Origin: Tupaia tana
Taxonomy: Eukaryota > Chordata > Mammalia > Scandentia > Tupaiidae
Assembly (NCBI GenBank): GCA_026018925.1
Contig: JAKSZU010000006.1
Location: forward strand, 130,737,592 to 130,801,591
DNA length: 64,000 nucleotides
Direction: 5' to 3'
The notes beneath the pieces are model-generated. The model saw only the letters and a list, made by a program, of their open reading frames with translations, made no database searches and was not told the origin of the DNA. A program made the position numbers and the translations under genes. Shown one piece after another: positions 29,001 through 30,838 of this stretch; the first letter of the stretch is position 1; every line of letters starts with the position of its first letter.

Positions 29001-30838
29001 TTCTGACTGGTTCGAACCGGTTCTGACTGGTTCTGACTGGTTGTGACTGGTTCAAACCGGCTCTGACTGGTTCACATCGGTTTGAACGGTTCTGATTGGT
29101 TGAAACCGGTTCTGACTGGTTCAGACTGGTCTGACTCATTCAAACAGGTTTGAACCGGTTCTGACTGGTTTAAACCAGCTCTGACTGGTTCTGACTGGTT
29201 CTGACAGGTTCAAACCGGCTCTGAGTGGTTCTGACTGGTTCAAAACGGCTCTGACTGGTTTGAACTGGTTCTGACTGGTTCAGACCGGTTCTGACTGGTT
29301 CGAACCGGTTCTGACTGGTTCAAACTGGCTCTGACTGGTTCGAACTGGTTCTGACTGGCTCAAACCGGTTCTGACTGGTTCAAACCGGCTCTGACTGCTT
29401 TCAACTGGTTCAAGCCTGCTCTGACTGGTTTCAACCGGTTCTGACTGGTTCTGACTGGTTTCAACCGGTTCTCAGTGGTTCTGACTGGCAATGACTGTTT
29501 TAAACTGGCTCTGACATGTTTGAACCGGTTCTAACTGGCTCGAACCAGCTCTGACTGGTTCGAAACGGTTCTGGCTGGTTTCAACCGGTTCTGACTGGCT
29601 TCAACCGGCTCTGACTGGCTCAAACCGGTTCGAACCAGTTTGAACCGGCTCCGACTGGTTCTGACTGGTCTAAACCGGTTCTGACTGGTTCAAACTGGCT
29701 CTGACTGGTTCTAACCGGTTTGAACCGGCTCTGACTGGTTTAAACCTGTTCTGACTGGTTTAAACTGGTCCTGAATGGTTCAAACCGGCTCTGACTGGTT
29801 CAGATCGGCTCTCACTGGTTTGAACCGGTTCAAACCGGTTTGAACAGGCTCTGACTGGTCTAAACCGGTTCTGACTGGTTCTGACCGGCTCAAACCAGCT
29901 CTAACTGGTTCTGACTGGTTCGAACCGGTTCTGACGGGTTCAAACCGGCTCTGACTGGTTTCAACCATTTCTGACTGGTTTGAACCGGCTCTGACTGGTT
30001 CTGACTGGTCTAAACCTGTTCTGACTGGTTCAAACTGGCTCTGACTGGTTCTAACCGGTTCGAACCGGCTCTGACTGGTTCTGACTGGCAGTGACTGTTT
30101 TAAACTGGCTCTGACATGTTTGAACCGGTTCTAACTGGCTCGAACCAGCTCTGACTGGTTCGAACCGGTTCTGACTGGTTCTGACAGGTTCAAACCGGCT
30201 CTGACTGGGTCTGACTGGTTCAAATCGGCTCTGACTGGCTTCAACCGGCTCTGACTGGCTCAAACCGGTTCGAACCGGCTTGAACCGGCTCTGACTGGTT
30301 CTGACTGGTCTAAACCGGTTCTGACTGGTTCAAACTGGCTCTGACTGGTTCTAACCGGTTCGAACCGGCTCTGACTGGTTTAAACCGGTTCTGACTGGTT
30401 TGAAATGGTTCTGACTGGTTTGAAGCAGTTCCAAATGGTCCTGACTGGTTCAAACTGGCTCTGACTGGTTTAAACCGGTTCTGACTGGTTCAAACCGGTT
30501 CTGACTGGTTTAAACTGGTCCTGACTGGTTCAAACCGGCTCTGACTGGTTCAAATCGGCTCTCGCTGGTTTGAACCAGTTCAAACCGGTTTGAACAGGCT
30601 CAGACTGGTACAAACCGGTTCTGACTGGTTCAAGCCGACTCTGATTGGTTTGAACCGGTTCTAACTGGCTCAGACCGGCTCTGACTGGTTCCAACCGGTT
30701 CTGACTGGTTTGAACCAGTTCTGAATGGTTCTGAGTGGTTCAAACCGACTCTGACTGGTTTGAACCGGTTCTAACTGTTTCTGAGCAGTTCAAATCGGCT
30801 ATGACTGGTTCCAACTGGTTCTGACTGGTTCAAAACAG
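29001..30838 (+). repeat. Right 10-bp repeat array with CP2/Grainyhead-type motif in each unit
   Basis: Units are CTGACTGGTT and CAAACCGGTT/CAAACCGGCT with variants, all fitting NNNAC(T/C)GG(T/C)T. From 29131 to about 30830 every unit stays in exact 10-bp register (about 170 units). Two 1-bp deletions occur before that, near 29083 and 29122. Neighbouring units give CTGG-N6-CCGG or CTGG-N6-CTGG. Longer blocks of units recur 600, 640, 340 and 750 bp apart, all multiples of 10. Confidence 0.97.

Follow-up and report, generated by a model that had tools for sequence, protein, structure and literature searches.

A 10-bp minisatellite rich in CP2- and Grainyhead-like half-sites, with an inverted partner array, upstream of ST8SIA1 in Tupaia tana

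The window analyzed here (the whole stretch of Tupaia tana DNA, 64,000 nucleotides) contains the first coding exon of ST8SIA1 (Table 1), which we take to end within the interval given; its product shares 96–97% identity with several placental proteins and 80% with a marsupial protein. The gene runs leftwards, and a decamer array that begins at 29001 (hereafter the right array) lies ~19 kb upstream of this first coding exon. A second, more diverged array (hereafter the left array, 25973–27362) consists of the same decamer in reverse orientation, and the two arrays are enclosed between the arms of an inverted duplication. Elsewhere in the window, a 24-bp tandem repeat (54635–54754) comprises five copies of GTAAACGGTGGGCCGTGATTGGTT, with ATTGG (the reverse of the CCAAT box) in every unit, and 37-bp repeats are located nearby (54424–54527). 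Two fragments that we take to be LINE-1 ORF1-like were identified at 35414–35902 (minus strand) and 43188–43706 (plus strand), the latter with four homologues at 75–80% identity. No Pfam families were found in the 7 of 51 window open reading frames (ORFs) that were searched, and there were no matches to Rfam at gathering scores or in a tRNA scan across the whole window.

Table 1. Arrays, inverted duplication and coding exon in the window; positions are counted from its first nucleotide.
Feature	Positions	Strand	Remarks
ST8SIA1 first coding exon	9574..9810	-	ORF and protein matches, up to 97% identical over 79 aa
Inverted duplication, left arm	24531..25972		Flank of left array
Left-array start, inverted copy of 29029–29149	25972..26092	-	121 bp, 94.2% identical, 7 mismatches
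Left array, first part	25973..26567	-	61 units, 54 complete; right-array unit reversed
SINE-like copy splitting left array	26570..26846		73% identical to the copy at 28355–28620, opposite orientation
Left array, second part	26852..27362	-	55 units, 46 complete
Right decamer array	29001..30837	+	185 units (181 complete); consensus of A units CTGACTGGTT, of B units YRAACCGGYT
Right-array piece matching 25972–26092 inverted	29029..29149	+	
Inverted duplication, right arm	31461..32899		Flank of right array

A preliminary description of this DNA had reported a 1.8-kb array of a 10-bp repeat, and this is confirmed by the extent and unit number of the right array (Table 1) and by its self-identity, which is 0.61 at a shift of 10 bp and 0.72 at 20 bp, compared with 0.28 and 0.27 in control DNA. 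The array spans ~1.8 kb and ends at 30834 or 30837, depending on how it is delineated; cutting it into 10-bp units reveals two frame jumps, and the complete units comprise 83 of type A, 78 of type B, and 20 others. An alternation of A and B units had also been described; alternation prevails as a general rule, but it is interrupted by many AA, BB, and mixed steps. Internally duplicated blocks (at least eight pairs, 103–274 bp, 84.5–97.1% identity) recur at offsets of 300 to 1150 bp (for blocks of at least 80 bp, among the matches listed), and thus the right array expanded at least partly via block duplication. Minisatellites are tandem arrays of ~10–60 bp units that span 0.5 kb or more, and the right array, with tandem 10-bp units across more than that length and internal duplications, belongs among them. 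At 0.63, the ratio of observed to expected CpG in the right array exceeds that of the two left-array parts (0.33 and 0.27) and of the remaining window (0.31); the high CpG content of the right array may reflect either recent growth or protection. A coding interpretation of a 116-aa ORF (29780–30130) was rejected by inspection, as this ORF is situated wholly inside the 10-bp period.

The arms of the inverted duplication are ~5.5 kb apart, upstream of ST8SIA1; over 1442 columns (1.44 kb) they differ by 6 mismatches and 3 gap letters (99.4% identity). Neither this inverted duplication of the flanks nor the inverted second array figured in the preliminary description. The inverted copy of a 121-bp piece of the right array (Table 1) adjoins the left arm without a gap, while at other offsets the best ungapped alignment of 121 bp between the two arrays agrees at 99 of 121 positions. 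The left arm runs unbroken into this inverted right-array sequence at 94% identity, and the right array was thus part of the inversion; the DNA from 29150 to 31460 has no counterpart in the left copy at the arm/array junction. Mismatches are more frequent in the 121-bp piece (7/121) than in the arm (6/1438; Fisher p 1.7e-5), which points to either faster change in array DNA or a separate history of the piece.

The SINE-like family to which the copy that splits the left array belongs is highly abundant: the 266-bp copy at 28355–28620 has 22 plus-strand matches (including itself) and 23 minus-strand matches in the 64 kb, and a further example is located at 20213–20470. A second SINE-like stretch (31379–31600, identified by inspection) spans the inversion breakpoint at 31461; apart from the portion that is present in the left arm, it is single in the window.

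Drosophila FB elements combine long inverted repeats with internal short tandem units. The arrays and arms could similarly constitute a single foldback-type mobile element, rather than a minisatellite plus a rearrangement, given that long inverted repeats here enclose short tandem units; we regard this as very unlikely, because both arms contain ordinary SINE-like family copies, and because the near-identity of the arms stands against only 70–82% identity for matches between the arrays (among the matches listed, outside the 121-bp piece). That the decamers are an outlier of a satellite family abundant in the genome would be in keeping with the presence of two separate arrays within a 64-kb window; this explanation is improbable, however, in that the arrays neighbor each other and are joined by the inversion, and the Grainyhead-like string AACCGGTT occurs 0 times in the 55.6 kb beyond 24501–32900.

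The published CP2 site is CNRG-N5-6-CNRG (PMC9223585 and PMC2908540, both in excerpt), with which the two-half-site CP2 motif of the preliminary description agrees. According to the same excerpt of PMC9223585, the Grainyhead motif is WCHKGTTB, two consecutive half-sites are enough for a CP2c tetramer, and the CP2c/CP2b/PIAS1 complex is recruited by at least three consecutive half-sites or by staggered motifs. In the right array, CNRG-N6-CNRG occurs 126 times on the plus strand and 121 times on the minus strand, compared with means of 1.5 and 4.4 (maxima of 6 and 13) in 200 dinucleotide shuffles, and the plus-strand half-site is intact in 150 of the 181 complete units. In terms of letters only, there are 132 distinct positions with two CNRG half-sites 6 bp apart, as in a CP2/LSF site. 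The assertion that nearly every unit pair forms such a site is too strong, as only ~126 of 184 adjacent pairs (68%) do so on one strand.

Much of this abundance is expected of a short period. Full enumeration reveals that 39% of all 10-mers yield CNRG-N6-CNRG once tandemly repeated, although with the A+B pair taken as the unit the motif appears in only 1.7% of 50,000 random 20-mers. Column permutations, which preserve the period and the conservation of the array, match the observed count (131 in complete units) in 75 of 1000 cases. Shuffling the order of units lowers the count only from 131 to a mean of 128.7, and hence there is little signal in unit order. Because one CNRG per 10-bp unit gives the pair automatically, CNRG-N6-CNRG alone represents weak to moderate evidence. 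This is a general pitfall: any 10-bp tandem repeat is ~40% likely to resemble a CP2 site array, and the period alone is no evidence of one.

Tighter motifs are more discriminating. WCHKGTTB occurs at 132 positions in the right array and AACCGGTT at 30, and in neither case is the count reached by any of 1000 column permutations; among 100,000 random 10-mers, 1.1% hold WCHKGTTB and 0.016% hold AACCGGTT. The same holds for CCRGTTYRAACCRG, which we take to be a TFCP2L1-like string (30 right-array positions, 0/1000 permutations). The comparison with unit-preserving shuffles that had been proposed at the outset is therefore marginal for CNRG-N6-CNRG (75/1000) and clear for the tighter motifs (0/1000). 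Grainyhead-like sites had been placed at the unit junctions, where AACCGGTT is indeed present beyond the permutation expectation, but its copies occupy a minority of junctions. For comparison, using patterns that we assume to represent MYB sites and p53 half-sites, the former number 16 in the right array (reached by 82 of 500 permutations), and the latter are absent from the right array and occur twice in either part of the left array. The CP2/GRHL factor family is a fit to the letters of the array; because the motifs were picked with the sequence already in view, and the comparison covered few factor families, this is a good fit rather than a ranking of this family as best.

Half-sites separated by 5- or 6-base gaps form long chains in the right array, the longest being of 17, 17, 15, and 14 half-sites on the plus strand and 20, 17, 14, and 12 on the minus strand, compared with a maximum of 5 in the left parts; with respect to letters, the right array thus contains many times the three consecutive half-sites that recruit CP2c/CP2b/PIAS1. 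With a period of 10 bp, successive sites point to nearly the same side of the helix. Half-sites so arranged would cooperatively load CP2 tetramers or GRHL dimers wherever the proteins are present, and high-avidity binding by TFCP2-family and GRHL proteins is predicted as a side effect of the unit.

Several known systems resemble the array in part. The CP2 clusters of the alpha-globin Hba-a2 promoter and of MRE HS21-4 likewise have consecutive CNRG half-sites with 5–6 bp spacing, although they comprise four half-sites with demonstrated binding, whereas the array has chains of up to 20 and predicted binding (PMC9223585, in excerpt). GGAA microsatellites and HSAT2/3 carry a transcription factor core within a tandem unit, and are bound as arrays by EWS:FLI1 and ERG (PMC11060741, in excerpt); they differ in involving ETS factors, another unit, and measured binding, as against CP2/GRHL factors, a 10-bp unit, and predicted binding. 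HERVH/LTR7 is also repeat DNA with LBP9 (TFCP2L1) sites (for HERVH, PMC11353194, in excerpt), but these are retroviral elements, whereas the array consists of tandem decamers.

Such properties might be expected of a selected CP2/GRHL platform, be it an enhancer, a hub, or a decoy; ST8SIA1, ~19 kb away, would be one example of a target. This would be consistent with tight motif counts above those of all 1000 permutations, the CpG-rich right array, and runs of at least three half-sites as required by CP2c/CP2b/PIAS1 (PMC9223585, in excerpt); in addition, the array could meet TFCP2L1 in primordial germ cells, which in humans express this factor (PMC4459712, in excerpt). The state of the half-sites argues otherwise. 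In the left array, 181 of 223 cells at the core positions C5 and G8 retain their letter, compared with 208 of 223 at A4 and T10 (p 0.00018); the corresponding right-array figures are 340 of 367 and 354 of 368 (p 0.038). As maintenance of the sites should produce the opposite direction, there is no sign of it. Mammalian mutation rates are higher at C and G than at A and T, and for this reason the weaker retention of the core is compatible with some selection.

The cores of the 78 B units are CCGG (43), CTGG (13), CCAG (7), TCGG (3), CCGA (1), and otherwise varied (11). These changes would fit the pattern expected from decay of methylated CpG, although CTGG in B units may instead stem from exchange with A units. 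Protection of CpG by a bound factor, an idea derived from the CpG ratio of the right array, was set aside, as the CpGs of B units change more than other letters. Given the poorer retention of core letters relative to their neighbors, the resemblance of B-unit changes to methylated CpG decay, and the short site chains of the left array, a selected platform is judged improbable. The role of enhancer, decoy, or binding platform envisaged in the preliminary description is, by the same token, possible but unsupported, the core letters being kept less than their neighbors in the diverged left array. Still less probable is a more elaborate form of this proposal, in which a strip phased with the helical turn would hold dozens of CP2 tetramers or GRHL dimers, sequester or concentrate TFCP2L1/GRHL2 in germline, pluripotent, or epithelial cells, and open chromatin upstream of ST8SIA1.

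The inverted layout of the arrays also recalls the fission yeast mating locus, where inverted IR repeats contain five B-boxes (PMC4502379, in excerpt), and a boundary that recruits TFIIIC via B-box-like sequences was considered as a further explanation. For the B-box, we take GWTCRANNC to be the relaxed pattern and GGTTCGANNCC to be the full pattern. The relaxed pattern matches at 51 right-array positions, and its count in complete units is reached by only 4 of 500 permutations; against this, the two parts of the left array have just 3 and 5 relaxed matches, and the full pattern occurs 0 times in the right array and in both left parts, compared with 5 times in the rest of the window. A TFIIIC boundary therefore appears highly unlikely.

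With regard to the growth of the array, the 300 bases from 29601 to 29900, the best-folding of six right-array stretches, have a folding z of -12.7 relative to dinucleotide shuffles (0 of 200 as good), compared with -0.8 for a left-array stretch (38 of 200 as good). Folding energies range from -48.6 to -78.4 kcal/mol for right-array stretches of 30 units and from -32.5 to -40.2 kcal/mol for four left-array stretches of ~300 bases, while a perfect array of CAAACCGGTT reaches -125.7 kcal/mol and a perfect A array -10.5 kcal/mol. Shuffling the order of units alters right-array folding little, and for each of the six right stretches between 3 and 27 of 100 column permutations fold equally well; because permuted arrays fold as well, folding is mostly a consequence of the short period. 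Hairpin formation as a special property of the array is weakened by these permutation results, and explains part of its behavior at most. Nevertheless, single strands of the right array, which are rich in AACCGGTT and TTYRAA palindromes, could form hairpins that favor slippage, and hairpin-aided slippage is a plausible motor of growth.

In our estimation, with a probability of roughly 0.6, the locus is a neutral 10-bp minisatellite in two inverted arrays, the unit of which contains a CP2/Grainyhead half-site that would be bound as a side effect. Slippage and unequal exchange, rather than selection, would drive the growth of such a minisatellite, and a break in one array that was repaired from the inverted partner would lead to flanking DNA being copied in reverse. 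The short tandem unit and internal duplications are shared with ordinary mammalian minisatellites, from which the array differs by having a partnered inverted array. The HS-beta satellite of the kangaroo rat also has a 10-bp unit, which is unlike the unit of the array. The decamer was not found as a described repeat in the literature searched by unit strings, where the inspected part of the hits matched two 10-letter strings and none of the longer ones, and the result is weak evidence; nor were tight TFCP2L1-like strings found in the literature searched, in which TFCP2 and minisatellites coincided for other repeats only. A 25-base pattern of the array had 0 matches in viral contigs.

The locus is thus best read as a locally expanding, rearrangement-prone minisatellite, the unit of which happens to form a near-ideal array of CP2/GRHL sites. 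The inverted array pair represents a clear example of a minisatellite involved in an inverted duplication of its own flanks. If bound, the array would provide a natural probe of the loading of CP2 tetramers and GRHL dimers onto long phased chains of half-sites, and would make it possible to ask whether selfish repeats can serve as factor sinks.
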